This document shows, piece after piece, positions 1-64,000 of a stretch of DNA of 64,000 nucleotides. The stretch is from contig CM049316.1 of NCBI GenBank assembly GCA_026874595.1, forward strand, positions 31,355,339-31,419,338. Direction: 5' to 3'. This DNA is from Sipunculus nudus (lineage: Eukaryota; Annelida; Sipuncula; Golfingiida; Sipunculidae). The first letter of the stretch is position 1. Every line of letters begins with the position of its first letter. The notes under the pieces were generated by a model that ran no database searches, was not told the origin of the DNA, and saw nothing but the letters and a program-made list of their open reading frames with translations. The position numbers were made by a program, and so were the translations under genes.

Positions 1-199
1 TAGGGAGACAGACGGGTTCCCTGGCTACACAGCAGTCCCGGTTAGTGAACATTTATATCAAAAATAAGGGCAATATCGTTTAATCAAAACCGCAAATGTA
101 TATTTCAGCTATTTTTATAAAAGTCATTTATTGGTTTCTTGGACCCATTTTCCAATTTTAACACAATTTACCTATAGTTTTTTACCATTTCTGACATTA

Positions 200-220
200 T
201 TAGACCCCCGCGAAGTCTAA
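200..220. other. Dyad TTAGAC-9 nt-GTCTAA before the monomer anchor
   Basis: TTAGAC (200-205) and GTCTAA (215-220) are exact reverse complements separated by the CpG-containing spacer CCCCGCGAA. The same dyad recurs in monomers whose segment reads ATTAGACCCCCGCGAAGTC. It is broken in subtypes reading TTAGAG...GTCTAA or TTAGAC...GTCCAA, so it is not maintained in every monomer. It could form a short hairpin or be a binding site; no function can be assigned. Confidence 0.6.
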
Positions 221-274
221 AAATACATTATTTCTTCAGAAAATGGTGCCAAAAAGCAATTATGAAGGCATAAT

Positions 275-318
275 CCCTTTGCTTACCCTTTGCTTATGCT
301 TTGCTTATTCTTTGCTTA
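275..318 (+). repeat. Four tandem 11-bp repeats (nnCTTTGCTTA) inside the monomer
   Basis: Bases 275-285, 286-296, 297-307 and 308-318 are four successive 11-mers ending CTTTGCTTA; the leading two bases are CC, CC, TG and TT. This run occurs at the same place, about 32 bp after the anchor, in essentially every full monomer. The leading bases of the second unit vary between subtypes (CC, CA, GA, or CCA followed by TTTGCTTA) and are useful markers. A 2-bp insertion in the run, giving CCCTTTGTGCTTATG, marks five monomers. The run accounts for the hydrophobic leucine/cysteine-rich stretch in the apparent translations. Whether a protein binds it cannot be told from sequence. Confidence 0.93.
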
Positions 319-390
319 CGGCAAAATCACAACGGAAATGGAGCATTTTCCTAAAAATAAACACTGATATGACCCATAGGGAGATAGACG

Positions 391-415
391 GGGACTCTGA
401 CTGCACAGCAGTCCC
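391..415. other. Overlapping dyads in one monomer subtype
   Basis: GACTGC (399-404), ACA, GCAGTC (408-413) is a perfect six-base inverted repeat with a three-base loop. Overlapping it, GGGACT (391-396) and AGTCCC (410-415) form a second, mutually exclusive pairing. The full arrangement occurs in the subtype reading GGGGACTCTGACTGCACAG, for example near 8,618, 15,848, 24,826, 29,654, 41,402 and 63,213. Other subtypes (GGCTACACAGCAGTCC, GGCTGCACAGCGTTCC) lose one arm. This may be chance within a variable patch. Confidence 0.5.
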
Positions 416-2690
416 GGTTAGTGAACAGTAATATCAAAAGTAAGGGCAATATCGTTCAATCAAAACCAGAAATCTATAATTCTTCTACTTTAAAAAAGTC
501 ATTTATTTATTCCTGGGACCTATTTTCTAATTTTAACACAATTTACCTACAGTGTTTTACTATTTCTGACATTTTTAGACCCCAGCGAAGTCTAAAAATA
601 CATTATTTCTTCAGAAAATGGTGCCAAAAAGCAATTATGAAGGCATAATCCCTTTGCTTACACTTTGCTTATGCTTTGCTTATTCTTTACTTATGGCAAA
701 ATCACAACAGAAATGCAGCATTTTCCTAAAAATACACACTGATATGACCCATAGGGAGACAGACGGGTCCCCTGGCTACACAGCAGTCCCGGTTAGTGAA
801 CATTAATATAAAAAATAAGGGCAATATCGTTCAATCAAAACCGCAAATGTATATTTCAGCTATTTTTATAAAAGTCATTTATTGATTTCTTGGACCCATT
901 TTTCAATTTTAACACAATTTACCTACAGTGTTTTACTATTTCTGACATTATTAGACCACCGCAAAGTCTAAAAATACATTATTGTCTTCAGAAAATGGTG
1001 TCAAAAAGCAATTATGAAGGCATAATCCCTTTGCTTACACTTTGCTTATGCTTTGCTTATTCTTTGCTTACGGCAAAATCACAACGGAAATGGAGCATTT
1101 TCCTAAAAATAAACCCTGATATGACCCATAGGGAGATAGACAGGTCCTCTGGCTGCAGAGCGTTCCCGGTTAGTGAACATTAATATCAAAAGTAAGGGCA
1201 ATATCGTTCAATCAAAACCAGAAATGTATATTTCAGCTATTTTTATAAAAGTTATTTGATTTCTTGCACCCATTTTTCAATTTTAACACAATTTACCTAC
1301 AGTGTTTTACTATTTCTGACATTATTAGACCCCCGCGAAGTCTAAAAATACATTATTGTCTTCAGAAAATGGAGCCAAAAAGCAATTATGAAGGCATAAT
1401 CCCTTTGCTTACACTTTGCTTATGCTTTGCTTATTCTTTTCTTACGGCAAAATCACAACAGAAATGCAGCATTTTCCTAAAAATACACACTGATATGACC
1501 CATAGGGAGACAGACGGTTTCCCTGGCTACCCAGCAGTCCCGGTTAGTGAACATTAATATCAAAAATAAGGGCAATATCGTTCAATCAAAACCGCAAATG
1601 TATATTTCAGCTATTTTCATAAAAGTCATTTATTGGTTTCTTGGACCCATTTTCCAATTTTAACACAATTTACCTACAGTGTTTTACCACTGCTGACATT
1701 ATTAGACCCCCATAAAGTCCAAAAATACATTATTTCTTCAGAAAATGGTGCCAAAAAGCAATTATGAAGGCATAATCCCTTTGCTTACCCTTTGCTTATG
1801 CTTTGCTTATTCTTTGCTTACGGCAAAATCACAGCGGAAATGGAGCATTTTCCTAAAAATAAACAATAATATGACAGATAGGGAGACAGACGGGTTCCCT
1901 GGCTACACAGCAGTCCCGGTTAGTGAACATTAATGTCAAAAGTAAGGGCAATATCCTTCAATCAAAACCACAAATGTATAATTCTGCTTCTTTAAAAAAG
2001 TCATTAATTGATTCCTGGGACCCATTTTCTAATTTTAACAGAATTTAAATACAGTGTTTCACCATTTCTGACATTATTAGACCCCCGCGAAGTCTAAAAA
2101 TACATTATTTCTTCAGAAAATGGTGCCAAAAAGCAATTATGAACGCATATTCCCTTTGCTTACCCTTTGCTTATCCTTTGCTTATTCTTTGCTTACGGCA
2201 AAATCACAACGGAAATGGAGCATTTTCCTAAAAATAAACACTGATATGACCCATAGGGAGATTGACGGGTCCACTGGCTGCACAGCGTTCTCGGTTTTGT
2301 GAACATTAAAATCAAAAGTAAGGGCAATATCGTTCAATCAAAACCAGAAATGTATATTTCAGCTATTTTTATAAAAGTCATTTATTGATTCGTGGGACCT
2401 ATTTTCTAATTTTAAAAGAATTTACCTACAGTGTTTCACCATTTCTGACTTTATTAGAGCCCCGCGAAGTCTAAAAATACATTATTGTCTTCAGAAAATG
2501 GTGCCAAAAAGCAATAATGAAGGCATAATCCCTTTGCTTAGACTTTGCTTATGCTTTGCTTATTCTTTGCTTACGGCAAAATCGCAACGGAAATGGAGCA
2601 TTTTCCTAAAAATAAACACTGATATGACCCATAGGGAGATAGACGGGTACTCTGACTGCACAGCAGTCCGGTTAGTGAACATTAATATCA

Positions 2691-2854
2691 ATCCCTTTGC
2701 TTACCATTTGCTGATGCTGTGCTTATTCTTTGCTTATGGCAAAATCACAACAGAAATGCAGCATTTTCCTAAAAATACACACTAATATGACCCATAGGGA
2801 GACAGACGGGTCCCCTGGCTACACAGCAGTCCGGGTTGGTGAACATTAATATAA
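2691..2854 (+). repeat. Truncated 164-bp monomer (1 of 16)
   Basis: ATTAATATCA, which normally runs on into AAAGTAAGGGC, is joined directly to ATCCCTTTGCTTACC in the 11-mer run. This removes ~212 bp including the anchor. Only one or two bases of shared A lie at the joint. The remaining 164 bp end at the next ATTAATATAA. Confidence 0.93.
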
Positions 2855-3981
2855 AAAATAAGGGAGATATCGTTCAATCAAACCGCAAATGTATATTTCA
2901 GCTATTTTTATAAAAGTCATTTATTGATTTCTTGGACCCATTTTTCAATTTTAACACAATTTACCTACAGTGTTTTACTATTTCTGACATTATTAGACCC
3001 CCGCGAAGTCTAAAAATACATTATTGTCTTCAGAAAATGGTGCCAAAAAGCAATTATGAAGGCATATTCCCTTTGCTTACCCTTTGCTTATGCTTTGCTT
3101 ATTCTTTGCTTACGGCAAAATCACAACGGAAATGGAGCATTTTCCTAAAAATAAACACTGATATGACCCATAGGGAGATAGACGGGGACTCTGACTGCAC
3201 AGCATTCCCGGTTAGTGTACATTAATATCAAAAGTAAGGGCAATATCGTTCAATCAAAACCAGAAATGTATAATTCTGCTTCTTGAAAAAAAATCATTTA
3301 TTTATTTCTGGGACCCATTTTCTAATTTTCACAGAATTTACCTACAGTGTTTCACCATTTCTGACGTTATTAGAGCCCCGCTAAGTCTAAAAATACATTG
3401 TCTTCAGAAAAAGGTGCCAAAAAGCAATTATGAAGGCATAATCCCTTTGCTTACACTTTGCTTATGCTTTGCTTATTCTTTGCTTACGGCAAAATCACAA
3501 CGGAAATGGAACAGTTTCCTAAAAATAAACACTGATATGACCCATAGGGAGATTGACGGGTCCTCTGGCTGCACAGCGTTCTCGGTTAGTGAACATTAAT
3601 ATCAAAAGTAAGGGCAATATCGTTCAATCAAAACCAGAAATGTATATTTCAGCTATTTTTATAAAAGTCATTTATTGATTCCTGGGACCTATTTTCTAAT
3701 TTTAAAAGAATTTACCTACAGTGTTTCACCATTTCTGACTTTATTAGAGCCCCGCGAAGTCTAAAAATACATTATTGTCTTCAGAAAATGGTGCCAAAAA
3801 GCAATTATGAAGGCGTATTCCCTTTGCTTAGACTTTGCTTATGCTTTGCTTATTCTTTGCTTACGGCAAAATCGCAACGGAAATGGAGCATTTTAGTAAA
3901 AATAAACACTGATATGACCCATAGGGAGATAGACGGGTACTCTGACTGCACAGCAGTCCCGGTTAGTGAACATTAATATCA

Positions 3982-4145
3982 ATCCCTATGCTTACCATTT
4001 GCTGATGCTTTTCTTATTCTTTGCTTATGGCAAAATCACAACAGAAATGCGGCATTTTTCTAAAAATACACACTAATATGACCCATAGGGAGACAGACGG
4101 GTCCCCTGGCTACACAGCAGTCCGGGTTGGTGAACATTAATATAA
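3982..4145 (+). repeat. Truncated 164-bp monomer (2 of 16)
   Basis: Same joint; variant ATCCCTATGC, then GATGCTTTTCTTATTC. Confidence 0.92.
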
Positions 4146-5834
4146 AAAATAAGGGCAATATCGTTCAATCAAAACCGCAAATGTATATTTCAGCTATTTT
4201 TATAAAAGTCATTTATTGATTTCTTGGACCCATTTTTCAATTTTAACACAATTTACCTACAGTGTTTTACTATTTCTGACATTATTAGACCCCCGCGAAG
4301 TCTAAAAATACATTATTGTCTTCAGAAAATGGTGTCAAAAAGCAATGATGAAGGCATAATCCCTTTGCTTACACTTTGCTTATGCTTTGCTTATTCGTTG
4401 CTTACGGCAAAATCACAACGGAAATGGAGCATTTTCCTAAAAATAAACACTGATATGACCCATCGGGAGATAGACGGGTCCTCTGGCAGCAGAGCGTTCC
4501 CGGTTAGTGAACATTAATATCAAAAGTAAGGGCAATATCGTTCAATCAAAACCAGAAATGTATATTTCAGCTATTTTTATAAAAGTCATTTATTGATTTC
4601 TTGGACCCATTTTTCAATTTTAACACAATTTTCCCACAGTGTTTTACTATTTCTGACATTATTAGACCCCCGCAAAGTCTAAAAACACATTATTGTCTTC
4701 AGAAAATGGTACCAAAAAGCAATTATGAAGACATAATCCCTTTGCTTAGACTTTGCTTATGCTTTGCTTATTCTTTGCTTACGGCAAAATCACAACAGAA
4801 ATGCAGCATTTTCCTAAAAATACACACTGATATGACCCATAGGGAGACAGACGGGTTCCCTGGCTACACAGCAGTCCCGGTTAGTGAACATTAATATCAA
4901 AAATAAGGGCAATATTGTTCAATCAAAACCGCAAATGTATATTTCAGCTATTTTTATAAAAGTCATTTATTGGTTTCTTGGACCCATTTTCCAATTTTAA
5001 CACAATTTACCTACAGTGTTTTACCATTTCTGACATTATTAGACCCCCGTTAAGTCCAAAAATACATTATTTCTTCAGAAAATGGTGCCAAAAAGCAATT
5101 ATGAAGGCATAATCCCTTTGCTTACCCTTTGCTTATGCTTTGCTTATTCTTTGCTTATGGCAAAATCACAACAGAAATGCAGCAATTCCCTAAAAATACA
5201 CACTAATATGACCCATAGGGAGACAGACGGGTCCCCTGGCTACACAGCAGTCCCGGTTAGTGAATATTTATATCAAAAATAAGGGCAATATAGTTCAATC
5301 AAAACCGCAAATGTATATTTCAGCTATTTTTATAAAAGTCATTTATTGATTTCTTGGACCCATTTTTCAATTTTAACACAATTTACCTACAGTGTTTTAC
5401 TATTTCTGACATTATTAGACCACCGCGAAGTCTAAAAATACATTATTGTCTTCAGAAAATGGTGTCAAAAAGCAATTATGAAGGCATAATCCCTTTGCTT
5501 ACACTTTGCTTATGCTTTGCTAATTCTTTGCTTACAGCAAAATCACAACAGAAATGCAGCATTTTCCTAAAAATACACACTGATATGACCCATAGGGAGA
5601 CAGACGGGTTCCCTGGCTACACAGCAGTCCCGGTTAGTGAACATTAATATCAAAAATAAGGGCAATATCGTTCAATCAAAACCGCAAGTGTATATTTCAG
5701 CTATTTTTATAAAAGTCATTTATTGGTTTCTTGGACCCATTTTCCAATTTTAACACAATTTACCTACAGTGTTTTACCATTTCTGACATTATTAGACCCC
5801 CGTAAAGTCCAAAAATACATTATTTCTTCAGAAA

Positions 5835-7340
5835 ATGGTGCCAAAAAGCAATTATGAAGGCATAATCCCTTTGCTTACCCTTTGCTTATGCTTTGCTTAT
5901 TCTTTGCTTACGGCAAAATCACAGCGGAAATGGAGCATTTTCCTAAAAATAAACACTGATATGACAGATAGGGAGACAGACGGGTTCCCTGGCTACACAG
6001 CAGTCCCGGTTAGTGAACATTAATGTCAAAAGTAAGGGCAATATCCTTCAATCAAAACCACAAATGTATAATTCTGCTTCTTTAAAAAAGTCATTAATTG
6101 ATTCCTGGGACCCATTTTCTAATTTTAACAGAATTTAAATACAGTGTTTTACTATTTCTGACATTATTAGACCCCCGCGAAGTCTAAAAATACATTATTT
6201 CTTCAGAAAATGGTGCCAAAAAGCAATTATGAAGGCTTATTCCCTTTGCTTACCCTTTGTGCTTATGCTTTGCTTATTCTTTGCTTACGGCAAAATCACA
6301 ACGGAAATGGAGCATTTTCCTAAAAATACACACTGATATGACCCATAGGGAGACAGACGGGTTCCCTGGCTACACAGCAGTCCCGGTTAGTGAACATTAA
6401 TATCAAAAATAAGGGCAATATCGTTCAATCAAAACCGCAAGTGTATATTTCAGCTATTTTTATAAAAGTCATTTATTGGTTTCTTGGACCCATTTTCCAA
6501 TTTTAACACAATTTACCTACAGTGTTTTACCATTTCTGACATTATTAGACCCCCGTAAAGTCCAAAAATACATTATTTCTTCAGAAAATGGTGCCAAAAA
6601 GCAATTATGAAGGCATAATCCCTTTGCTTACCCTTTGCTTATGCTTTGCTTATTCTTTGCTTACGGCAAAATCACAGCGGAAATGGAGCATTTTCCTAAA
6701 AATAAACACTGATATGACAGATAGGGAGACAGACGGGTTCCCTGGCTACACAGCAGTCCCGGTTAGTGAACATTAATGTCAAAAGTAAGGGCAATATCCT
6801 TCAATCAAAACCACAAATGTATAATTCTGCTTCTTTAAAAAAATCATTAATTGATTCCTGGGACCCATTTTCTAATTTTAACAGAATTTAAATACAGTGT
6901 TTTACTATTTCTGACATTATTAGACCCCCGCGAAGTCTAAAAATACATTATTTCTTCAGAAAATGGTGCCAAAAAGCAATTATGAAGGCTTATTCCCTTT
7001 GCTTACCCTTTGTGCTTATGCTTTGCTTATTCTTTGCTTACGGCAAAATCACAACGGAAATGGAGCATTTTCCTAAAAATAAACACTGATATGACCCATA
7101 GGGAGATAGACGGGTCCTCTGACTGCACAGCATTCCCGGTTAGTGAACATTAATATCAAAAGTAAGGGCAATATCGTTCAATCAAAACAGAAATGTATAA
7201 TTCTGCTTCTTGAAAAAAAATCATTTATTTATTCCTGGGACCCATTTTCTAATTTTCACAGAATTTACCTACAGTGTTTCACCATTTCTGACGTTATAAG
7301 AGCCCCGCGAAGTCTAAAAATACATTATTGTCTTCAGAAA
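5835..7340 (+). repeat. Two-monomer (753-bp) tandem duplication
   Basis: The dimer anchored at 5835/6210 is followed 753 bp later by 6588/6963 with the same diagnostic changes: CACAGCGGAAATGG, GACAGATAGGG in place of GACCCATAGGG, and the 2-bp insertion CCCTTTGTGCTTATG in the second monomer. The last ~300 bp differ (RETDG-type against REIDG-type 3' patch). The same duplication is present at 22,043-23,548, but only one dimer is found at 48,349-49,102. The duplication therefore came before the 16.2-kb duplication, or the 6.7-kb lineage lost one dimer. Confidence 0.85.
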
Positions 7341-9413
7341 ATGGTGTCAAAAAGCAATTATGAAGGCATAATCCCTTTGCTTACACTTTGCTTATGCTTT
7401 GCTTATTCTTTGCTTACGGCAAAATCACAACGGAAATGGAGCATTTTCCTAAAAATAAACACTGATATGACCCATAGGGAGATTGACGGGTCCTCTGGCT
7501 GCACAGCGTTCTCGGTTAGTGAACATTAATATCAAAAGTAAGGGCAATATCGTTCAATCAAAACCAGAATTGTATATTTCAGCTATTTTTATAAAAGTCA
7601 TTTATTGATTCCTGGGACCTATTTTCTAATTTTAAAAGAATTTACCTACAGTGTTTCACCATTTTCGAAGTTATTAGAGCCCCGCAGAGTCTAAAAATAC
7701 ATTATTGTCTTCAGAAAATGGTGCCAAAAAGCAATTATGAAGGCATAATCCCTTTGCTTAGACTTTGCTTATGCTTTGCTTATTCTTTGCTTACGGCAAA
7801 ATCACAACAGAAATGCAGCATTTTCCTAAAAATACACACTGATATGACCCATAGGGAGACAGACGGGTTCCCTGGCTACACAGCAGTCCCGGTTAGTGAA
7901 CATTAATATCAAAAATAAGGGCAATATCGTTCAATCAAAACCGCAAGTGTATATTTCAGCTATTTTTATAAAAGTCATTTATTGGTTTCTTGGACCCATT
8001 TTCCAATTTTAACACAATTTACCTACAGTGTTTTACCATTTCTGACATTATTAGACCCCCGTAAAGTCCAAAAATACATTATTTCTTCAGAAAATGGTGC
8101 CAAAAAGCAATTATGAAGGCATAATCCCTTTGCTTACCCTTTGCTTATGCTTTGCTTATTCTTTGCTTATGGCAAAATCACAAGAGAAATGCAGCAATTC
8201 CCTAAAAATACACACCAATATGACCCATAGGGAGACAGACGGGTCCCCTGGCTACACAGCAGTCCCAGTTAGTGAACATTAATATCAAAAATAAGGACAA
8301 TATCGTTCAATCAAAACCGCAAATGTATATTTCAGCTATTTTTATAAAAGTCATTTATTGATTTCTTGGACCCATTTTTCAATTTTAACACAATTTACCT
8401 ATAGTTTTTTACCATTTCTGACATTATTAGACCCCCGCGAAGTCTAAAAATACATTATTTCTTCAGAAAATGGTGCCAAAAAGCAATTATGAAGGCATAA
8501 TCCCTTTGCTTACCCTTTGCTTATGCTTTGCTTATTCTTTGCTTACGGCAAAATCACAACGGAAATGGAGCATTTTCCTAAAAATAAACACTGATATGAC
8601 CCATAGGGAGATAGACGGGGACTCTGACTGCACAGCAGTCCCGGTTAGTGAACATTAATATCAAAAGTAAGGGCAATATCGTTCAATCAAAACCAGAAAT
8701 GTATAATTCTGCTACTTTAAAAAAGTCATTTATTGATTCCTGGGACCTATTTTCTAATTTTAACCAAATTTACCTATAGTTTTTTACCATTTCTGACATT
8801 ATTAGACCCCCGCGAAGTCTAAAAATACATTATTTCTTCAGAAAATGGTGCCAAAAGCAATTATGAAGGCATAATCCCTTTGCTTACCCTTTGCTTATGC
8901 TTTGCTTATTCTTTGCTTACGGCAAAATCTCAACAGAAATGCAGCATTTTCCTAAAAATACACACTGATATGACCCATAGGGAAACAGACGTGTCCCCTG
9001 GCTACACAGCAGTCCCGGTTAGTGAACATTAATATCAAAAATAAGGGCAATATCGTTCAATCAAAACCACAAATGTATATTTCAGATATTTTTATAAAAG
9101 TTATTTATTGATTTCTTGGACCCATTTTTCAATTTTAACACAATTTACGTAGAGTCTTTTACCATTTCTGACATTATTACACCCCCGTAAAGTCCAAAAA
9201 AACATTATTTCTTCAGAAAATGGTGCCAAAAAGCAATTATGAAGGCATAATCCCTTTGCTTACCCTTTGCTTTTGCTTTGCTTATTCTTTGATTACAGCA
9301 AAATCGTAACGGAAATGGAGCATTTTCCTAAAAATAAACACTGATATGACCCATAGGAAGATAGACGGGTACTCTAACTGCACAGCAGTCCCGGTTAGTG
9401 AACATTAATATCA

Positions 9414-9577
9414 ATCCCTTTGCTTACCATTTGCTTATGCTGTGCTTATTCTTTGCTTATGGCAAAATCACAACAGAAATGCAGCATTTTCCTAAAAATA
9501 CACACTAATATGACCCATAGGGAGACAGACGGGTCCCCTGGCTACACAGCAGTCCCGGTTAGGGAACAATAATATAA
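9414..9577 (+). repeat. Truncated 164-bp monomer (3 of 16)
   Basis: Same joint; this copy belongs to the 3,994-bp unit and ends AGGGAACAATAATATAA. Confidence 0.92.
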
Positions 9578-9660
9578 AAAATAAGGGCAATATCGTTCAA
9601 TCAAAACCGCAAATGTATATTTCAGCTATTTTTATAAAAGTCATTTATTGGTTTCTTGGA

Positions 9661-9700
9661 CCCCTTGGACGTTATTAGAGCCCCTTGGACGTTATTAGAG
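9661..9700 (+). repeat. 20-bp direct doublet at a small deletion
   Basis: CCCCTTGGACGTTATTAGAG occurs twice in tandem (9,661-9,680 and 9,681-9,700). It replaces the usual ~51 bp between TTCTTGGAC and GTTATTAGAG, so a deletion and a short duplication happened at one point. The same doublet is at 13,655-13,694, 35,215-35,254 and 39,209-39,248, always within the 3,994-bp unit. Confidence 0.9.
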
Positions 9701-9712
9701 CCCCGCAAAGTC

Positions 9713-9880
9713 TAAAAATACATTATTGTCTTCAGAAAATGGTGCCAAAAAGCAATTATGAAGGCATAATCCCTTTGCTTAGACTTTGCTTATGTTTAAA
9801 AATACATTATTGTCTTCAGAAAATGGTGCCAAAAAGCAATTATGAAGGCATAATCCCTTTGCTTAGACTTTGCTTATGCT
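9713..9880 (+). repeat. 84-bp tandem duplication spanning the monomer anchor
   Basis: Bases 9,713-9,796 and 9,797-9,880 are the same 84 bp, running from TAAAAATACATTATTG through the anchor into the second 11-mer unit (ATGTT at the joint, ATGCT in the second copy). Because 84 is divisible by three it lengthens the local open frame and gives a 28-residue doublet in translation. It recurs at 13,707-13,874, 35,267-35,434 and 39,261-39,428, one per 3,994-bp unit. Confidence 0.92.
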
Positions 9881-12800
9881 TTGCTTATTCTTTGCTTACG
9901 GCAAAATCACAACAGAAATGCAGCATTTTTCTAAAAATACACACTGATATGACCCATAGGGAGACAGACGGGTTCCCTGGCTACACAGCAGTCCCGGTTA
10001 GTGAACATTAATATCAAAAATAAGGGCAATATCGTTTAATCAAAACCGCAAATGTATATTTCAGCTATTTTTATAAAAGTCATTTATTGGTTTCTTGGAC
10101 CCATTTTCCAATTTTAACACAATTTACCTACAGTGTTTTACCATTTCTGACATTATTAGACCCCCGTAAAGTCCAAAAATACATTATTTCTTCAGAAAAT
10201 GGTGCCAAAAAGCAATTATGAAGGCATAATCCCTTTGCTTACCATTTGCTTATGCTTTGCTTATTCTTTGCTTATGGCAAAATCACAACAGAAATGCAGC
10301 AATTCCCTAAAAATACACACTAATATGACCCATAGGAAGACAGACGGGTCCCCTGGCTACACAGCAGTCCCGGTTAGTGAACATTAATATCAAAAATAAG
10401 GGCAATATCGTTCAATCAAAACCGCAAATGTATATTTCAGCTATTTTTATAAAAGTCATTTATTGATTTCTTGGACCCATTTTTCAATTTTAACACAATT
10501 TACCTACAGTGTTTTACTATTTCTGACATTATTAGACCACCGCTAAGTCTAAAAATACATTATTGTCTTCAGAAAATGGTGTCAAAAAGCAATTATGAAG
10601 GCATAATCCCTTTGCTTACACTTTGCTTATGCTTTGCTTATTCTTTGCTTACGGCAAAATCACAACGGAAATGGAGCATTTTCCTGAAAATAAACACTGA
10701 TATGACCCATAGGGAGATAGACGGGTCCTCTGGCTGCAGAGCGTTCCCGGTTAGTGAACATTAATATCAAAAGTATGGGCAATATCGTTCAATCTAAACC
10801 AGAAATGTATATTTCAGCTATTTTTATAAAAGTCATTTATTGATTTCTTGGACCCATTTTTCAATTTTAATACAATTTACCTACAGTGTTTTACTATTTC
10901 TGACATTATTAGACCCCCGCGAAGTCTAAAAATACATTATTGTCTTCAGAAAATGGTGCCAAAAAGCAATAATGAAGGCATAATCCCTTTGCTTACACTT
11001 TGCTTATGCTTTGCTTATTCTTTGCTTACGGCAAAATCACAACGGAAATGGAGCATTTTCCTAAAAATAAACACTGATATGACCCATAGGGAGATTGACG
11101 GGTCCTCTGGCTGCACAGCGTTCTCGGTTAGTGAACATTAATATCAAAAGTAAGGGCAATATCGTTCAATCAAAACCAGAAATGTATATTTCAGGTATTT
11201 TTATAAAAGTCATTTATTGATTCCTGGGACCTATTTTCTAATTTTAAAAGAATTTACCTACAATGTTTCACAATTTCTGACGTTATTAGAGCCTCGCAAA
11301 GTCTAAAAATACATTATTGTCTTCAGAAAATGGTGCCAAAAAGCAATTATGAAGCCATAATCCCTTTGCTTAGACTTTGCTTATGCTTTGCTTATTCTTT
11401 GCTTACGGCAAAATCACAACAGAAATGCAGCATTTTTCTAAAAATACACACTGATATGACCCATAGGGAGACAGACGGGTTCCCTGGCTACACAGCAGTC
11501 CCGGTTAGTGAACATTAATATCAAAAATAAGGGCAATATCGTTTAATCAAAACCGCAAATGTATATTTCAGCTATTTTTTATAAAAGTCATTTATTGGTT
11601 TCTTGGACCCATTTTCCAATTTTAACACAATTTACCTACAGTGTTTTACCATTTCTGACATTATTAGACCCCCGTAAAGTCCAAAAATACATTATTTCTT
11701 CAGAAAATGGTGCCAAAAAGCAATTATGAAGGCATAATCCCTTTGCTTACCATTTGCTAATGCTTTGCTTATTCTTTGCTTATGGCAAAATCACAACAGA
11801 AATGCAGCAATTCCCTAAAAATACACACTAATATGACCCATAGGAAGACAGACGGGTCTCCTGGCTACACAGCAGTCCCGGTTAGTGAACATTAATATCA
11901 AAAATAAGGGCAATATCGTTCAATCAAAACCGCAAATGTATATTTCAGCTATTTTTATAAAAGTCATTAATTGATTTCTTGGACCCATTTTTCAATTTTA
12001 ACACAATTTACCTACAGTGTTTTACTATTTCTGACATTATTAGACCACCGCTAAGTCTAAAAATACATTATTGTCTTCAGAAAATGGTGTCAAAAAGCAA
12101 TTATGAAGGCATAATCCCTTTGCTTACACTTTGCTTATGCTTTGCTTATTCTTTGCTTACGGCAAAATCACAACGGAAATGGAGCATTTTCCTAAAAATA
12201 AACACTGATATGACCCATAGGGAGATAGACGGGTCCTCTGGCTGCAGAGCGTTCCCGGTTAGTGAACATTAATATCAAAAGTATGGGCAATATCGTTCAA
12301 TCAAAACCAGAAATGTATATTTCAGCTATTTTTATAAAAGTCATTTATTGATTTCTTGGACCCATTTTTCAATTTTAACACAATTTACCTACAGTGTTTT
12401 ACTATTTCTGACATTATTAGACCCCCGCGAAGTCTAAAAATACATTATTGTCTTCAGAAAATGGTGCCAAAAAGCAATTATGAAGGCATAATCCCTATGC
12501 TTACACTTTGCTTATGCTTTGCTTATTCTTTGCTTACGGCAAAATCACAACGGAAATGCAGCATTTTCCTAAAAGTACACACTGATATGACCCATAGGGA
12601 GATAGACGGGTCCTCTGGCTGCAGAGCGTTCCCGGTTAGTGAACATTAATATCAAAAGTATGGGCAATATCGTTCAATCAAAACCAGAAATGTATATTTC
12701 AGCTATTTTTATAAAAGTCATTTATTGATTTCTTGGACCCATTTTTCAATTTTAACACAATTTACCTACAGTGTTTTACTATTTCTGACATTATTAGACC

Positions 12801-13571: not shown

Positions 13572-13654
13572 AAAATAAGGGCAATATCGTTCAATCAAAA
13601 CCGCAAATGTATATTTCAGCTATTTTTATAAAAGTCATTTATTGGTTTCTTGGA

Positions 13655-52100: not shown

Positions 52101-53339
52101 GAGATATCGTTCAATCAAACCGCAAATGTATATTTCAGCTATTTTTATAAAAGTCATTTATTGATTTCTTGGACCCATTTTTCAATTTTAACACAATTTA
52201 CCTACAGTGTTTTACTATTTCTGACATTATTAGACCCCCGCGAAGTCTAAAAATACATTATTGTCTTCAGAAAATGGTGCCAAAAAGCAATTATGAAGGC
52301 ATATTCCCTTTGCTTACCCTTTGCTTATGCTTTGCTTATTCTTTGCTTACGGCAAAATCACAACGGAAATGGAGCATTTTCCTAAAAATAAACACTGATA
52401 TGACCCATAGGGAGATAGACGGGGACTCTGACTGCACAGCATTCCCGGTTAGTGTACATTAATATCAAAAGTAAGGGCAATATCGTTCAATCAAAACCAG
52501 AAATGTATAATTCTGCTTCTTGAAAAAAAATCATTTATTTATTTCTGGGACCCATTTTCTAATTTTCACAGAATTTACCTACAGTGTTTCACCATTTCTG
52601 ACGTTATTAGAGCCCCGCTAAGTCTAAAAATACATTGTCTTCAGAAAAAGGTGCCAAAAAGCAATTATGAAGGCATAATCCCTTTGCTTACACTTTGCTT
52701 ATGCTTTGCTTATTCTTTGCTTACGGCAAAATCACAACGGAAATGGAACAGTTTCCTAAAAATAAACACTGATATGACCCATAGGGAGATTGACGGGTCC
52801 TCTGGCTGCACAGCGTTCTCGGTTAGTGAACATTAATATCAAAAGTAAGGGCAATATCGTTCAATCAAAACCAGAAATGTATATTTCAGCTATTTTTATG
52901 AAAGTCATTTATTGATTCCTGGGACCTATTTTCTAATTTTAAAAGAATTTACCTACAGTGTTTCACCATTTCTGACTTTATTAGAGCCCCGCGAAGTCTA
53001 AAAATACATTATTGTCTTCAGAAAATGGTGCCAAAAAGCAATTATGAAGGCGTATTCCCTTTGCTTAGACTTTGCTTATGCTTTGCTTATTCTTTGCTTA
53101 CGGCAAAATCGCAACGGAAATGGAGCATTTTAGTAAAAATAAACACTGATATGACCCATAGGGAGATAGACGGGTACTCTGACTGCACAGCAGTCCCGGT
53201 TAGTGAACATTAATATCAATCCCTATGCTTACCATTTGCTGATGCTTTTCTTATTCTTTGCTTATGGCAAAATCACAACAGAAATGCAGCATTTTTCTAA
53301 AAATACACACTAATATGACCCATAGGGAGACAGACGGGT
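49110..53339 (+). repeat. 6,723-bp unit, second copy, cut off at 53.3 kb
   Basis: Anchors are 49479, 49855, 50232, 50606, 50982, 51357, 51735, 52274, 52648 and 53025, with truncated monomers at 51,928 and 53,219. It follows 42,387-46,616 with few differences, for example TGCTTTTGC near 49,905 for TGCTTATGC. The copy ends inside the truncated monomer: up to 53,339 it reads like 46,496-46,616, and from 53,340 (GGGTTCCC) like 24,077 onward. Confidence 0.92.
51928..52091 (+). repeat. Truncated 164-bp monomer (12 of 16)
   Basis: Counterpart of 45,205 in the second 6,723-bp copy. Confidence 0.92.
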
Positions 53340-53382: not shown

Positions 53383-54885
53383 AAAATAAGGGCAATATCG
53401 TTCAATCAAAACCGCAAGTGTATATTTCAGCTATTTTTATAAAAGTCATTTATTGGTTTCTTGGACCCATTTTCCAATTTTAACACAATTTACCTACAGT
53501 GTTTTACCATTTCTGACATTATTAGACCCCCGTAAAGTCCAAAAATACATTATTTCTTCAGAAAATGGTGCCAAAAAGCAATTATGAAGGCATAATCCCT
53601 TTGCTTACCCTTTGCTTATGCTTTGCTTATTCTTTGCTTATGGCAAAATCACAAGAGAAATGCAGCAATTCCCTAAAAATACACACCAATATGACCCATA
53701 GGGAGACAGACGGGTCCCCTGGCTACACAGCAGTCCCAGTTAGTGAACATTAATATCAAAAATAAGGACAATATCGTTCAATCAAAACCGCAAATGTATA
53801 TTTCAGCTATTTTTATAAAAGTCATTTATTGATTTCTTGGACCCATTTTTCAATTTTAACACAATTTACCTATAGTTTTTTACCATTTCTGACATTATTA
53901 GACCCCCGCGAAGTCTAAAAATACATTATTTCTTCAGAAAATGGTGCCAAAAAGCAATTATGAAGGCATAATCCCTTTGCTTACCCTTTGCTTATGCTTT
54001 GCTTATTCTTTGCTTACGGCAAAATCACAACGGAAATGGAGCATTTTCCTAAAAATAAACACTGATATGACCCATAGGGAGATAGACGGGGACTCTGACT
54101 GCACAGCAGTCCCGGTTAGTGAACATTAATATCAAAAGTAAGGGCAATATCGTTCAATCAAAACCAGAAATGTATAATTCTGCTACTTTAAAAAAGTCAT
54201 TTATTGATTCCTGGGACCTATTTTCTAATTTTAACCAAATTTACCTATAGTTTTTTACCATTTCTGACATTATTAGACCCCCGCGAAGTCTAAAAATACA
54301 TTATTTCTTCAGAAAATGGTGCCAAAAGCAATTATGAAGGCATAATCCCTTTGCTTACCCTTTGCTTATGCTTTGCTTATTCTTTGCTTACGGCAAAATC
54401 TCAACAGAAATGCAGCATTTTCCTAAAAATACACACTGATATGACCCATAGGGAAACAGACGTGTCCCCTGGCTACACAGCAGTCCCGGTTAGTGAACAT
54501 TAATATCAAAAATAAGGGCAATATCGTTCAATCAAAACCGCAAATGTATATTTCAGATATTTTTATAAAAGTTATTTATTGATTTCTTGGACCCATTTTT
54601 CAATTTTAACACAATTTACGTAGAGTCTTTTACCATTTCTGACATTATTACACCCCCGTAAAGTCCAAAAAAAACATTATTTCTTCAGAAAATGGTGCCA
54701 AAAAGCAATTATGAAAGCATAATCCCTTTGCTTACCCTTTGCTTTTGCTTTGCTTATTCTTTGATTACAGCAAAATCGTAACGGAAATGGAGCATTTTCC
54801 TAAAAATAAACACTGATATGACCCATAGGGAGATAGACGGGTACTCTGACTGCACAGCAGTCCCGGTTAGTGAACATTAATATCA

Positions 54886-55049
54886 ATCCCTTTGCTTACC
54901 ATTTGCTTATGCTGTGCTTATTCTTTGCTTACGGCAAAATCACAACAGAAATGCAGCATTTTCCTAAAAATACACACTAATATGACCCATAGGGAGACAG
55001 ACGGGTCCCCTGGCTACACAGCAGTCCGGGTTGGTGAACATTAATATCA
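54886..55049 (+). repeat. Truncated 164-bp monomer (14 of 16)
   Basis: Counterpart of 25,622 (offset 29,264), also with TTACGGC. Confidence 0.92.
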
Positions 55050-55232
55050 AAATTAAGGGCAATATCGTTCAATCAAAACCGCAAATGTATATTTTAGCTA
55101 TTTTTATAAAAGTCATTTATTGATTTCTTGGACCCATTTTTCAATTTTAACACAATTTACCTACAGTGTTTTACTATTTCTGACATTATTAGACCCCCGC
55201 GAAGTCTAAAAATACATTATTGTCTTCAGAAA

Positions 55233-55438
55233 AAGGTGCCAAAAGCAATTATGAAGGCATAATCCCTTTGCTTACACTTTGCTTATGCTTTGCTTATTCT
55301 TTGCATACGGCAAAATCACAACAGAAATGCAGCATTTTCCTAAAAATACACACTGATATGACCCATAGGGAGACAGACGGGTTCCCTGGCTACACAGCAG
55401 TCCCCGTAAAGTCCAAAAATACATTATTTCTTCAGAAA
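55233..55438 (+). repeat. 206-bp monomer, second copy
   Basis: Same internal deletion and AAGGTG anchor as 25,969-26,174, at offset 29,264; the joint is at ~55,405. Confidence 0.88.
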
Positions 55439-56986
55439 ATGGTGCCAAAAAGCAATTATGAAGGCATAATCCCTTTGCTTACCTTTTGCTTATGCTTTGC
55501 TTATTCTTTGCTTACGGCAAAATCACAACGGAAATGGAGCATTTTCCTAAAAATAAACACTGCTATGACCCATAGGGAGATAGACGGGGACTCTGACTGC
55601 ACAGCATTCCCGGTTAGTGAACATTAATATCAAAAGTAAGGGCAATATCGTTCAATCAAAACCAGAAATGTATATTTCAGCTATTTTTATAAAAGTCATT
55701 TATTGATTCCTGGGACCTATTTTCTAATTTTAAAAGAATTTACCTACAGTGTTTCACCATTTCTGACGTTATAAGAGCCCCGCAAAGTATAAAAATACAT
55801 TATTGTCTTCAGAAAATGGTGCCAAAAAGCAATTATGAAGGCATAATCCCTTTGCTTAGACTTTGCTTATGCTTTGCTTATTCTTTGCTTACGGCAAAAT
55901 CACAACAGAAATGCAGCATTTTCCTAAAAATACACACTGATATGACCCATAGGGAGACAGACGGGTTCCCTGGCTACACAGCAGTCCCGGTTAGTGAACA
56001 TTAATATAAAAAATAAGGGCAATATCGTTCAATCAAAACCGCAAGTGTATATTTCAGCTATTTTTATAAAAGTCATTTATTGGTTTTTTGGACCCATTTT
56101 CCAATTTTAACACAATTTACCTATAGTTTTTTACCATTTCTGACATTATTCCACCCCCGCGAAGTCTAAAAATACATTATTTCTTCAATAAATGGTGCCA
56201 AAAAGCAATTATGAAGGCATAATCCCTTTGCTTACCCTTTGCTTATGCTTTGCTTATTCTTTGCTTACGGCAAAATCACAACGGAAATGGAGCATTTTCC
56301 TAAAAATAAACACTGATATGACCCATAGGGAGATAGACGGGTCCCCTGGCTACACAGCAGTCCGGGTTGGTGAACATTAATATCAAAAGTAAGGGCAATA
56401 TCGTTCAATCAAAACCAGAAATGTATAATTCTGCTACTTTAAAAAAGTCATTTATTGATTCCTGGAACTTATTTTCTAATTTTAACACAATTTACCTATA
56501 GTTTTTTACCATTTCTGACATTATTAGACCCCCGTGAAGTCTAAAAATACATTATTTCTTCAGAAAATGATGCCAAAAAGCAATTATGAAGGCATAATCC
56601 CTTTGCTTACACTTTGCTTATGCTTTGCTTATTCTTTGCTTACGGCAAAATCACAACGGAAATGGAGCATTTTCCTAAAAATAAACACTGATATGACCCA
56701 TAGGGAGATAGACGGGTCCTCTGGCTGCACAGCGTTCCCGGTTAGTGAACATTAATATCAAAAGTAAGGGCAATATCGTTCAATCAAAACCAGAAATGTA
56801 TATTTCAGCTATTTTTATAAAAGTCATTTATTGATTTCTTGGACCCATTTTTCAATTTTAACACAATTTACCTATAGTTTTTTACCATTTCTGACATTAT
56901 TAGACCCCCGCGAAGTCTAAAAATACATTATTTCTTCAATAAATGGTGCCAAAAAGCAATTATGAAGGCATAATCCCTTTGCTTAC

Positions 56987-58082
56987 AGCCAGAGGACACG
57001 TCTATCTCCCTATGGGTCATATCAGTGTTTATTTTTAGGAAAATGCTCCATTTCCGTTGTGATTTTGCCGTAAGCAAAGAATAAGCAAAGCATAAGCAAA
57101 GTGTAAGCAAAGGGATTATGCCTTCATAATTGCTTTTTGGCACCATTTTCTGAAGAAATAATGTGTTTTTAGACTTCGCGGGGGTGTAATAATGTCAGAA
57201 ATGGTAAAAAACTATAGGTAAATTGTGTTAAAATTAGAAAATAGGTCCCAGGAATCAATAAATGACTTTTTTAAAGTAGCAGAATTATACATTTCTGGTT
57301 TTGATTGAACGATATTGCCCTTACTTTTGATATTAATGTTCACTAACCGGGACTGCTGTGCAGTCAGAGTCCCCGTCTATCTCCCTATGGGTCATATCAG
57401 TGTTTATTTTTAGGAAAATGCTCCATTTCTGTTGTGATTTTGCCGTAAGCAAAGAATAAGCAAAGCATAAGCAAAGGGTAAGCAAAGGGATTATGCCTTC
57501 ATAATTGCTTTTTGGCACCATTTTCTGAAGAAATAATGTATTTTTAGACTTCGCGGGGGTCTAATAATGTCAGAAATGGTAAAAAACTATAGGTAAATTG
57601 TGTTAAAATTGAAAAATGGATCCAAGAAATCAATAAATGACTTTTATAAAAATAGCTGAAATATACATTTCTGGTTTTAATTGAACGATATTGCCCTTAC
57701 TTTTGATATTAATGTTCACTAACCAGGAACGCTGTGCAGCCAGAGGACCCGTCTATCTCCCTATGGGTCATATCAGTGTTTATTTTTAGGAAAATGCTCC
57801 ATTTCCGTTGTGATTTTGCCGTAAGCAAAGAATAAGCAAAGCATAAGCAAAGTGTAAGCAAAGGGATTATGCCTTCATAATTGCTTTTTGGCACCATTTT
57901 CTGAAGAAATAATGTATTTTTAGACTTCGCGGGGGTCTAATAATGTCAGAAATGGTAAAAAACTATAGGTAAATTGTGTTAAAATTGAAAAATGGGTCCA
58001 AGAATTCAATAAATTACTTTTATAAAAATAGCTGAAATATACATTTGCGGTTTTGATTGAACGATATTGTCCTTATTTTTGA
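56987..58082 (-). repeat. Inverted satellite segment, copy 2 (1,096 bp)
   Basis: It has the same joints as copy 1: forward sequence ends GCTTAC at 56,986, and inverted sequence ends TTATTTTTGA at 58,082, followed by CCCATATGACCC. Minus-strand anchors are at 57,146, 57,521 and 57,897, three instead of two. The length difference from copy 1 is 376 bp, exactly one monomer; the extra one lies between ~57,600 and ~57,980 (marked by GGATCCAAG, AACCAGGAACGC and GGACCCGTC). The inversion came before the duplication, and a monomer was later gained here or lost in copy 1. Confidence 0.93.
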
Positions 58083-58428
58083 CCCATATGACCCATAGGG
58101 AGACAGACGGGTTCCCTGGCTACACAGCAGTCCCCGTAAAGTCCAAAAATACATTATTTCTTCAGAAAATGGTGCCAAAAAGCAATTATGAAGGCATAAT
58201 CCCTAAAATTGAAAAATGGGTCCAAGAAATCAATAAATGACTTTTATAAAAATAGCTGAAATATACATTTGCGGTTTTGATTGAACGATATTGTCCTTAT
58301 TTTTGACCCATATGACCCATAGGGAGACAGACGGGTTCCCTGTCTACACAGCAGTCCCCGTAAAGTCCAAAAATACATTATTTCTTCAGAAAATGGTGCC
58401 AAAAAGCAATTATGAAGGCATAATCCCT
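57981..58428. repeat. 224-bp tandem duplication, second copy
   Basis: 57,981-58,204 and 58,205-58,428 repeat the mixed-orientation unit of 28,341-28,788, with the same differences between its halves (AATTCAATAAATTAC against AAATCAATAAATGAC; CTGGC against CTGTC). The end of the second half reads AGGC here and AGAC at 28,777. Confidence 0.92.
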
Positions 58429-58572
58429 TTGCTTACCCTTTGCTTATGCTATGCTTATTCCTTGCTTACGGCAAAATCACAACGGAAATGGAGCATTTTC
58501 CTAAAAATAAACACTGATATGACCCATAGGGAGATAGACGGGTCCCCTGGCTACACAGCAGTCCGGGTTGGT

Positions 58573-61500
58573 GAACATTAATATCAAAATTAAGGGCAAT
58601 ATCGTTCAATCAAAACCAGAAATGTATATTTCAGCTATTTTTATAAAAGTCATTTATTGATTCCTGGGACCTATTTTCTAATTTTAAAAGAATTTACCTA
58701 CAGTGTTTCACCATTTCTGACGTTATTAGAGCCCCGCAAAGTCTAAAAATACATTATTGTCTTCAGAAAATGGTGCCAAAAAGCAATTATGAAGGCATAA
58801 TCCCTTTGCTTACACTTTGCTTATGCTTTGCTTATTCTTTGCTTACGGCAAAATCACAACGGAAATGGAGCATTTTCCTAAAAATAAACACTGATATGAC
58901 CCATAGGGAGATAGACGGGTCCTCTGGCTGCACAGCGTTCCTGGTTAGTGAACATTAATATCAAAAGTAAGGGCAATATCGTTCAATTAAAACCAGAAAT
59001 GTATATTTCAGCTATTTTTATAAAAGTCATTTATTGATTTCTTGGACCCATTTTTCAATTTTAACACAATTTTCCTATAGTTTTTTACCATTTCTGACAT
59101 TATTAGACCCCCGCGAAGTCTAAAAATACATTATTTCTTCAGAAAATGGTGCCAAAAAGCAATTATGAAGGCATAATCCCTTTGCTTACCCTTTGCTTAT
59201 GCTTTGCTTATTCTTTGCTTACGGCAAAATCACAACAGAAATGGAGCATTTTCCTAAAAATAAACACTGATATGACCCATAGGGAGATAGACGGGGACTC
59301 TGACTGCACAGCAGTCCCGGTTAGTGAACATTAATATCAAAAGTAAGGGCAATATCGTTCAATCAAAACCAGATATGTATATTTCAGCTATTTTTATAAA
59401 AGTCATTTATTGATTTCTTGGACCCATTTTTCAATTTTAACACAATTTACCTATAGTTTTTTATCATTTCTGACATTATTAGACCCCCGCGAAGTCTAAA
59501 AATACATTATTTCTTCAGAAAATGGTGCCAAAAGCAATTATGAAGGCATAATCCCTTTGCTTACCCTTTGCTTATGCTTTGCTTATTCTTTACTTACGGC
59601 AAAATCTCAACAGAAATGCAGCATTTTCCTAAAAATACACACTGATATGACCCATAGGGAGACAGACGTGTCCCCTGGCTACACAGCAGTCCCGGTTAGT
59701 GAACATTAATATCAAAAATAAGGGCAATATCGTTCAATCAAAACCGCAAATGTATATTTCAGATATTTTTATAAAAGTTATTTATTGATTTCTTGGACCC
59801 ATTTTTCAATTTTAACACAATTTACGTACAGTCTTTTACCATTTCTGACATTATTACACCCCCGTAAAGTCCAAAAAAACATTATTTCTTCAGAAAATGG
59901 TGCCAAAAAGCAATTATGAAAGCATAATCCCTTTGCTTACCCTTTGCTTTTGCTTTGCTTATTCTTTGATTACAGCAAAATCGTAACGGAAATGGAGCAT
60001 TTTCCTAAAAATAAACACTGATATGACCCATAGGGAGATAGACGGGTACTCTGACTGCACAGCAGTCCCGGTTAGTGAACATTAATATCAAACCCTTTGC
60101 TTACCATTTGCTTATGCTGTGCTTATTCTTTGCTTATGGCAAAATCACAACAGAAATGCAGCATTTTCCTAAAAATACACACTAATATGACCCATAGGGA
60201 GACAGACGGGTCCCCTGGCTACACAGCAGTCCGGGTTGGTGAACATTAATATCAAAATTAAGGGCAATATCGTTCAATCAAAACCAGAAATGTATATTTC
60301 AGCTATTTTTATAAAAGTCATTTATTGATTCCTGGGACCTATTTTCTAATTTTAAAAGAATTTACCTACAGTGTTTAACCATTTCTGACGTTATTAGAGC
60401 CCCGCAAAGTCTAAAAATACATTATTGTCTTCAGAAAATGGTGCCAAAAAGCAATTATGAAGGCATAATCCCTTTGCTTACACTTTGCTTATGCTTTGCT
60501 TATTCTTTGCTTACGGCAAAATCACAACGGAAATGGAGCATTTTCCTAAAAATAAACACTGATATGACCCATAGGGAGATAGACGGGTCCTCTGGCTGCA
60601 CAGCGTTCCTGGTTAGTGAACATTAATATCAAAAGTAAGGGCAATATCGTTCAATTAAAACCAGAAATGTATATTTCAGCTATTTTTATAAAAGTCATTT
60701 ATTGATTTCTTGGACCCATTTTTCAATTTTAACACAATTTTCCTATAGTTTTTTACCATTTCTGACATTATTAGACCCCCGCGAAGTCTAAAAATACATT
60801 ATTTCTTCAGAAAATGGTGCCAAAAAGCAATTATGAAGGCATAATCCCTTTGCTTACCCTTTGCTTATGCTTTGCTTATTCTTTGCTTACGGCAAAATCA
60901 CAACAGAAATGGAGCATTTTCCTAAAAATAAACACTGATATGACCCATAGGGAGATAGACGGGGAGTCTGACTGCACAGCAGTCCCGGTTAGTGAACATT
61001 AATATCAAAAGTAAGGGCAATATCGTTCAATCAAAACCAGATATGTATATTTCAGCTATTTTTATAAAAGTCATTTATTGATTTCTTGGACCCATTTTTC
61101 AATTTTAACACAATTTACCTATAGTTTTTTATCATTTCTGACATTATTAGACCCCCGCGAAGTCTAAAAATACATTATTTCTTCAGAAAATGGTGCCAAA
61201 AGCAATTATGAAGGCATAATCCCTTTGCTTACCCTTTGCTTATGCTTTGCTTATTCTTTACTTACGGCAAAATCTCAACAGAAATGCAGCATTTTCCTAA
61301 AAATACACACTGATATGACCCATAGGGAGACAGACGTGTCCCCTGGCTACACAGCAGTCCCGGTTAGTGAACATTAATATCAAAAATAAGGGCAATATCG
61401 TTCAATCAAAACCGCAAATGTATATTTCAGATATTTTTATAAAAGTTATTTATTGATTTCTTGGACCCATTTTTCAATTTTAACACAATTTACGTACAGT

Positions 61501-61908
61501 CTTTTACCATTTCTGACATTATTACACCCCCGTAAAGTCCAAAAAAACATTATTTCTTCAGAAAATGGTGCCAAAAAGCAATTATGAAAGCATAATCCCT
61601 TTGCTTACCCTTTGCTTTTGCTTTGCTTATTCTTTGATTACAGCAAAATCGTAACGGAAATGGAGCATTTTCCTAAAAATAAACACTGATATGACCCATA
61701 GGGAGATAGACGGGTACTCTGACTGCACAGCAGTCCCGGTTAGTGAACATTAATATCAAACCCTTTGCTTACCATTTGCTTATGCTGTGCTTATTCTTTG
61801 CTTATGGCAAAATCACAACAGAAATGCAGCATTTTCCTAAAAATACACACTAATATGACCCATAGGGAGACAGACGGGTCCCCTGGCTACACAGCAGTCC
61901 GGGTTGGT
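58573..61908 (+). repeat. 1,668-bp higher-order unit, two tandem copies
   Basis: 58,573-60,240 and 60,241-61,908 repeat each other. Each holds monomers of types 58770/60438, 59146/60814, 59522/61190 and 59897/61565 and one truncated monomer (60,091 and 61,759), that is 4 x 376 + 164 = 1,668. Shared marks are ATCAAAATTAAGGGC at the start, AATTAAAACCAG, AGATATGTAT, TTTACTTACGG, GACGTGTCCCC and TCGTAACGG. Differences are few: GTGTTTCACC/GTGTTTAACC (58,707/60,375) and GGACTCTG/GGAGTCTG (59,295/60,963). The second copy ends where AACCGC replaces AACCAG at ~61,950. Confidence 0.92.
60091..60254 (+). repeat. Truncated 164-bp monomer (15 of 16)
   Basis: Same joint with one substitution: ATCAAACCCTTTGC for ATCAATCCCTTTGC. 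Confidence 0.92.
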
Positions 61909-61922
61909 GAACATTAATATCA
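61759..61922 (+). repeat. Truncated 164-bp monomer (16 of 16)
   Basis: Identical joint and ATCAAACCC variant, 1,668 bp after the previous one. Confidence 0.92.
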
Positions 61923-64000
61923 AAATTAAGGGCAATATCGTTCAATCAAAACCGCAAATGTATATTTCAGCTATTTTTATAAAAGTCATTTATTGATTTC
62001 TTGGACCCATTTTTCAATTTTAACACAATTTACCTACAGTGTTTTACTATTTCTGACATTATTAGACCCCCGCGAAGTCTAAAAATACATTATTGTCTTC
62101 AGAAAAAGGTGCCAAAAGCAATTATGAAGGCATAATCCCTTTGCTTACACTTTGCTTATGCTTTGCTTATTCTTTGCATACGGCAAAATCAGAACAGAAA
62201 TGCAGCATTTTCCTAAAAATACACACTGATATGACCCATAGGGAGACAGACGGGTTCCCTGGCTACACAGCAGTCCCCGTAAAGTCCAAAAATACATTAT
62301 TTCTTCAGAAAATGGTGCCAAAAAGCAATTATGAAGGCATAATCCCTTTGCTTACCCTTTGCTTATGCTTTGCTTATTCTTTGCTTACGGCAAAATCACA
62401 ACGGAAATGGAGCATTTTCCTAAAAATAAACACTGCTATGACCCATAGGGAGATAGACGGGGACTCTGACTGCACAGCATTCCCGGTTAGTGAACATTAA
62501 TATCAAAAGTAAGGGCAATATCGTTCAATCAAAACCAGAAATGTATATTTCAGCTATTTTTATAAAAGTCATTTATTGATTCCTGGGACCTATTTTCTAA
62601 TTTTAAAAGAATTTACCTACAGTGTTTCACCATTTCTGACGTTATAAGAGCCCCGCAAAGTCTAAAAATACATTATTGTCTTCAGAAAATGGTGCCAAAA
62701 AGCAATTATGAAGGCATAATCCCTTTGCTTAGACTTTGCTTATGCTTTGCTTATTCTTTGCTTACGGCAAAATGACAACAGAAATGCAGCATTTTCCTAA
62801 AAATACACACTGATATGACCCATAGGGAGACAGACGGGTTCCCTGGCTACACAGCAGTCCCGGTTAGTGAACATTAATATAAAAAATAAGGGCAATATCG
62901 TTCAATCAAAACCGCAAGTGTATATTTCAGCTATTTTTATAAAAGTCATTTTTTGGTTTCTTGGACCCATTTTCCAATTTTAACACAATTTACCTATAGT
63001 TTTTTACCATTTCTGACATTATTAGACCCCCGCGAAGTCTAAAAATACATTATTTCTTCAGAAAATGGTGCCAAAAAGCAATTATGAAGGCATAATCCCT
63101 TTGCTTACCCTTTGCTTATGCTTTGCTTATTCTTTGCTTACGGCAAAATCACAACGGAAATGGAGCATTTTCCTAAAAATAAACACTGATATGACCCATA
63201 GGGAGATAGACGGGGACTCTGACTGCACAGCAGTCCCGGTTAGTGAACATTAATATCAAAAGTAAGGGCAATATCGTTCAATCAAAACCAGAAATGTATA
63301 ATTCTGCTACTTTAAAAAAGTCATTTATTGATTCCTGGGACCTATTTTCTAATTTTAACACAATTTACCTATAGTTTTTTACCATTTCTGACATTATTAC
63401 ACCCCCGCGAAGTCTAAAAATACATTATTTCTTCAATAAATGGTGCCAAAAAGCAATTATGAAGGCATAATCCCTTTGCTTACCCTTTGCTTATGCTTTG
63501 CTTATTCTTTGCTTACGGCAAAATCACAACGGAAATGGAGCATTTTCCTAAAAATAAACACTGATATGACCCATAGGGAGATAGACGGGTCCCCTGGCTA
63601 CACAGCAGTCCGGGTTGGTGAACATTAATATCAAAATTAAGGGCAATATCGTTCAATCAAAACCAGAAATGTATATTTCAGCTATTTTTATAAAAGTCAT
63701 TTATTGATTCCTGGGACCTATTTTCTAATTTTAAAAGAATTTACCTACAGTGTTTCACCATTTCTGACGTTATTAGAGCCCCGCAAAGTCTAAAAATACA
63801 TTATTGTCTTCAGAAAATGGTGCCAAAAAGCAATTATGAAGGCATAATCCCTTTGCTTAGACTTTGCTTATGCTTTGCTTATTCTTTGCTTACGGCAAAA
63901 TCACAACAGAAATGCAGCATTTTCCTAAAAATACACACTGATATGACCCATAGGGAGACAGACGGGTTCCCTGGCTACACAGCAGTCCCGGTTAGTGAAC
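61909..64000 (+). repeat. Final forward monomers, running off the window
   Basis: Anchors are 62106 (AAGGTG), 62312, 62689, 63065, 63440 and 63817. Up to about 62,990 the sequence follows 55,036-56,117 at offset 6,873, including the 206-bp monomer; then it switches to other types, with 63440 resembling 56192. The window ends inside a monomer, so the array continues to the right. Confidence 0.9.
62106..62311 (+). repeat. 206-bp monomer, third copy
   Basis: Same internal deletion joint (CAGTCCCCGTAAAG at ~62,275) and AAGGTG anchor as at 25,969 and 55,233. A private change is AATCAGAACAG near 62,190 for AATCACAACAG. Confidence 0.88.

Follow-up and report, generated by a model that had tools for sequence, protein, structure and literature searches.

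The whole 64,000-bp stretch analysed here (the window) is a single continuous satellite array of eukaryotic type, a non-coding succession of head-to-tail repeats of about 376 bp. We consider it very probable that this is a long and probably heterochromatic eukaryotic array in which diverged monomers were multiplied as blocks by homologous out-of-place exchange, carrying rare joints along, and in which a helical rhythm of the sequence may aid packing. We infer a heterochromatic, possibly centromeric or pericentromeric, location. In the proposed scenario, diverged ~376-bp monomers would have been multiplied in multi-monomer blocks, by unequal crossover or by break-induced replication with template switching, giving rise to nested higher-order repeats (HORs). 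Rare joints out of register, comprising one deletion together with small duplications and inversions and showing 0–3 bp of flush matching sequence, would then have been spread by block copying. A 10.4-bp rhythm of AA/TT/AT/TA steps, with which successive monomers would begin on nearly one helical face, may aid an orderly packing of nucleosomes.

The extent of the array was determined with nhmmer, using a profile that was seeded with the six initial monomers and then underwent two rounds of refinement on full-length matches within the window. Matches to this profile cover 63,754 of 64,000 bp, in agreement with the initial annotation, which had described one satellite filling the 64 kb. The 212 matches comprise 153 full monomers (148 on the plus strand and 5 on the minus strand) and 59 partial ones, where one truncated monomer may yield two matches. 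Monomers are approximately 375–377 bp long, with a consensus of 375 bp, and the starts of successive full plus-strand monomers are spaced by 374–378 bp, the spacing being 376 or 377 bp in 95 of 126 cases. The G+C content is 34–36% across the entire window. Pairwise identity among monomers averages 92.4% with block copies included, and neighbouring monomers, at 92.2%, do not exceed this mean, a result that speaks against growth by single monomers as the most recent process. At an average-linkage distance cut-off of 2.5% the full monomers fall into 30 classes, each with at least two members and none a singleton; the most frequent are classes L (15 monomers), C (12), F and T (10 each).

The period of 376 bp that had been read in the array holds as the monomer length but not as a near-identical repeat, as no segments of at least 250 bp were found at offsets of 375 or 376 bp; an offset of 377 bp yields three 669-bp segments with 98.4–98.5% identity. 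The reported 11-bp period corresponds to a subrepeat, CTTTGCTTAYN, present in about four copies inside the monomer (among the matches listed, 150 of 325). In these listed matches the four copies lie at 275–319, and at approximately 276–320 of the consensus. The block of subrepeats includes TGCTTATGCTTTGCTTATTC, the 20 bp that are best conserved in the monomer, and is a candidate protein-binding site.

Superimposed on the monomers are 21 direct near-identical blocks of 0.9–9.6 kb, which together cover 94.25% of the window; outside them are positions 29952–32481 and 63215–64000 and two stretches of less than 200 bp each. The multi-monomer blocks are 99.2–100% identical compared to the monomer mean of 92.4%, the relation that characterises HORs, and this supports the earlier proposal of growth through segmental duplications of several sizes. 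In the map of matches, 169 of 209 runs of four consecutive labels occur more than once; when the order of the 212 labels was shuffled 500 times, such recurring runs numbered 0.016 on average and never more than 2. The longest block pair equates 1–9555 with 16209–25763 (99.87% identity, offset 16,208), and another of the longest equates 9319–16757 with 34873–42311 with 9 mismatches. The block list follows, in outline, the alternating order given in the initial annotation (A, HOR, link, A, rearranged, HOR, link, 6.7-kb unit, rearranged). By position, the features are:

1–64000: continuous satellite array, from nhmmer with the window-derived profile.
1–16208, plus strand: 16,208-bp higher-order unit, reference copy, from the 16,208-bp offset and the class map; 39 full monomers in 22 classes, with further truncated or internally duplicated monomers.
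5558–7081, plus strand: 753-bp dimer in two copies (classes N F N F), found again at 21766–23289.
9319–15037, plus strand: 3,994-bp HOR, one copy and the beginning of a second, holding 84-bp and 20-bp tandem duplications.
16209–25763, plus strand: second copy of the 16.2-kb unit, truncated, unit positions 1–9555; 12 mismatches in 9,555 bp.
27722–28715, minus strand: first inverted patch, with a 224-bp direct duplication; minus-strand stretches at 27722–28441 and 28564–28665, plus-strand pieces between and after them.
29952–32481, plus strand: link segment outside the 21 blocks, with just the weaker local 1,880-bp offset.
32482–42311, plus strand: third copy of the 16.2-kb unit, partial, in which 3,994 bp are again duplicated in tandem; offsets 21,560 and 25,554.
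42387–53339, plus strand: 6,723-bp tandem duplication with an incomplete second copy; 2 mismatches in 4,230 bp aligned.
43122–48842, plus strand: third copy continued, unit positions 608–6328, offset 42,514; displaced by 752 bp (about two monomers) relative to the preceding block.
54668–57619: copy of 25404–28355 with an identical inversion junction, offset 29,264.
56986–58355, minus strand: second inverted patch, exceeding the first by one monomer; minus-strand stretches at 56986–58081 and 58204–58305.
58536–61953, plus strand: 1,668-bp HOR in two copies (classes a b c S and a 163-bp truncated monomer); 2 mismatches in 1,750 bp.

The 16,208-bp unit dominates the window, which is too short to show many tandem copies of it and contains a full copy, a truncated one and a rearranged one. 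By direct matches, 46,185 bp (72.2%) belong to the unit at 1–16208 or to partial copies of it, the reference copy counted; the share is 73.2% when approximately 0.7 kb matched only indirectly is counted as well. When the reference copy is excluded, 29,977 of 47,792 bp (62.7%) are copied from parts of the unit. The 39 full monomers of the unit belong to only 22 classes, so monomer types recur within it. The 753-bp and 3,994-bp repeats are located inside the unit, the 6,723-bp duplication sits within its rearranged third copy, and the 1,668-bp repeat is located outside it.

The periods were checked through ungapped near-identical segments. Those of 16,208, 6,723, 3,994, 1,668 and 753 bp in the initial annotation were all recovered, with segments of 98.9–100% identity at each offset: 42387–46616 at offset 6,723 (99.95%), 32482–36597 and 9319–11043 at offset 3,994 (99.8–99.9%), 58536–60285 at offset 1,668 (99.89%), and 5558–6328 and 21766–22536 at offset 753 (99.9–100%), where three further segments of 374 bp have 98.9–99.2% identity. 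A period of 1,880 bp is likewise present, but it is local and partly less identical (29476–29956 at 99.8% and 30320–31259 at 98.9%). Strong offsets beyond those previously noted are 25,554, 26,306, 42,514, 21,560, 29,264, 33,029 and 49,237. Within the 3,994-bp unit, a 20-bp tandem duplication, CCCCTTGGACGTTATTAGAG, adjoins the 84-bp one at 9661–9704 and 13655–13698 among the matches listed, and the joints of this duplication were found again near 35215 and 39209.

Nesting of this kind raises the possibility that the window is part of the functional centromere core of one chromosome, that is, a CENP-A-bearing higher-order array. This would be a refinement of the main explanation, and we entertain it tentatively, as possible rather than probable. 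The nested HORs and the 99.2–100% identity of the blocks resemble the alpha-satellite HOR arrays of ape centromeres (PMC12428378). Against a centromere core, the core of the CENP-B box has no match in the window at 0 or 1 mismatch (0 and 3.5 matches in 10 Markov sequences), and both the inverted patches and the link blocks that lack duplicates would suit pericentromeric or subtelomeric heterochromatin equally well. The CENP-B box is a feature of only some centromeres; many lack one. With two mismatches allowed, 47 matches to the core were observed compared to 70 expected, and with three, 1,115 compared to 658 in Markov sequences.

It is improbable that the large-scale nesting is partly an artefact of assembly, in which reads would have been misjoined inside a simpler array. 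In favour of such an artefact, assemblers have most difficulty with blocks that are 99.9% identical, the only tandem partner of the 6.7-kb repeat is incomplete, and the 16.2-kb unit has a truncated copy in tandem and a rearranged one besides. However, the copies differ by scattered single bases, such as the 12 differences between the first two copies of the unit, and elements of one structure are found in several parts of the window.

It is equally hard to credit that the array arose by tandem amplification of part of a transposable element or gene, as opposed to being a classical satellite: satellite monomers do sometimes derive from transposable elements, but among the ORFs listed seven in the window have at least 110 amino acids (the longest 135), the three of these that were scanned contain no Pfam family at the cut-off, neither the consensus nor one 755-bp stretch has inverted repeats other than short, imperfect ones, and no RNA family was found. 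An origin of this kind that is too old to see is possible. Two of the three scanned ORFs had no Pfam family at all, and the third had five, all under the cut-offs (best E 0.017). No Rfam family reached the gathering score within the window, and a search of the window for tRNA genes found none. A structural role of single-stranded stem-loops was considered for one monomer and rejected (z = −0.84, with 24 of 100 shuffled sequences folding equally well). A bacterial, plasmid, phage or viral origin was rejected as well, since a 1.5-kb piece had no match in plasmid and phage collections and two short exact patterns had none in viral contigs or in prokaryote genomes. Twelve fragments of the monomer sequence were absent from the literature text searched, and the literature found through monomer length and higher-order terms gave no identification of the satellite.

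For the preferred reading, a satellite multiplied in blocks, the joints between monomers bear on how the copying took place. To locate joints, both strands of the circular consensus were fitted to the window by dynamic programming with a single chosen jump penalty, on which the number of joints depends. This fit gave 43 out-of-register joints of nine types, or eight after merging +60/+273 with +63/+276, which we merged because each removes 212 bp at nearly one place. The types are +60 to +273 (14 joints), +63 to +276 (2), +37 to +207 (7), +150 to +193, +210 to +191 and +298 to +216 (4 each), and three inversion types with two, four and two joints. The joints carry 0–3 bp of flush matching sequence, comparable to products of end-joining or slippage. 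Their flanks recur with few changes, and each type would have arisen once and then been copied. The two inverted patches, approximately 1.0 and 1.4 kb in size, have joints in common while the second is longer by one monomer, which indicates that the patch was copied within a larger block.

The ends of the near-identical blocks are not enriched at these joints. None of 41 block ends lies within 60 bp of a joint (random means 5.4 and 6.2), 6 lie within 100 bp (random mean 9.7), 12 within 150 bp (13.6) and 13 within 200 bp (16.8), with the remaining 28 farther from any joint; the 41 ends are not independent, as blocks overlap and some share ends, and their positions are rough, being set by scoring. 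The absence of enrichment, together with the fact that most block ends are in monomer register, favours homologous unequal exchange or homology-driven copying (replication restart) as the route of recent growth, and these data fit unequal crossover, break-induced replication and gene conversion alike. The six block ends within 100 bp of a joint may include a few of non-homologous origin. As the joints reduce to eight or nine types and the block ends are mostly in register, the order of copying events could be reconstructed from the sequence.

The array also has a pronounced helical rhythm, a new observation beyond the initial annotation. In the AA/TT/AT/TA steps of the consensus, harmonic 36 (10.42 bp) is the strongest of all harmonics, at 18.3 times the mean, and its strength was matched at harmonics 35–37 by none of 2,000 first-order Markov sequences. 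Randomising the block of 11-bp subrepeats 200 times did not lower it. With one monomer taken per class, harmonic 36 ranked first in 29 of the 30 classes, which are related and hence not independent tests. Over the whole window, periods of 8–13 bp peak most strongly at 10.45 bp. The length of the consensus equals 36 helical turns at approximately 10.4 bp, and each monomer might accommodate about two nucleosomes, packed in phase; because the halves of the monomer have no detectable relatedness, it is the length that suggests this number. An origin of the monomer as a dimer of 188-bp halves was rejected (best half-to-half score −3.5 compared to a shuffled mean of 0.7). Through this rhythm, a connection between chromatin packing and the length of the monomer could be put to the test. 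One can speculate further that this ~376-bp satellite is a previously undescribed one with a cascading 16.2-kb super-HOR, that its monomer of 36 turns keeps bending and dinucleosome packing phased over kilobases, and that a "helical register" has possibly been selected on monomer length, although we think this rather unlikely.

The CpG dinucleotide occurs at 0.58 of its expected frequency. Transitions are more frequent at CpG than at any other of the 16 dinucleotides, with 33% and 15% of cells under two counting rules, and the excess of CpG over the next dinucleotide (22% and 9%) is modest. Of 65 mismatches between recent block copies, 5 are transitions at CpG, a count that spans 11 of the 21 blocks, some of them overlapping; CpG bases make up 3.6% of the window. 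As an indication of CpG decay, which would point to CpG methylation, these values are suggestive only. CHG sites are not more mutable than CHH sites, a pattern that points weakly away from a plant.

To our knowledge, fully resolved nested higher-order satellite arrays have less often been described outside primates. Primate alpha satellite itself was rejected as an identification, as the consensus has 375 bp and its halves align no better than shuffled sequences; its monomer is approximately 171 bp long (PMC9221937), compared to approximately 376 bp here, and the likeness considered is one of architecture. The closest parallel may be the orangutan Y alpha satellite, whose "cascading" super-HOR is a 58mer of 44 monomer types with 0.25% divergence and 67 copies (PMC12428378). 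The present unit is likewise very long (39 full monomers and some altered ones), has fewer types than monomers (22 of 39, compared to 44 of 58), so that types repeat within it, and diverges little between copies (0.13% between the first and second). Unlike the 58mer, it is represented in the window by one full and two partial copies, and the array contains inverted patches. In the latter respect it is reminiscent of the (peri)centromeric arrays of Tribolium, which have macro-dyad symmetries; the T. madens satellites derive from an element of approximately 110 bp and form dyads of tens of kilobases (PMC13081366). Both systems have inversions whose sites coincide between copies, again a likeness of architecture, whereas the inverted patches described here are small and the array is otherwise one-directional. 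In its overall architecture, the array resembles known satellite DNA of the centromere type.
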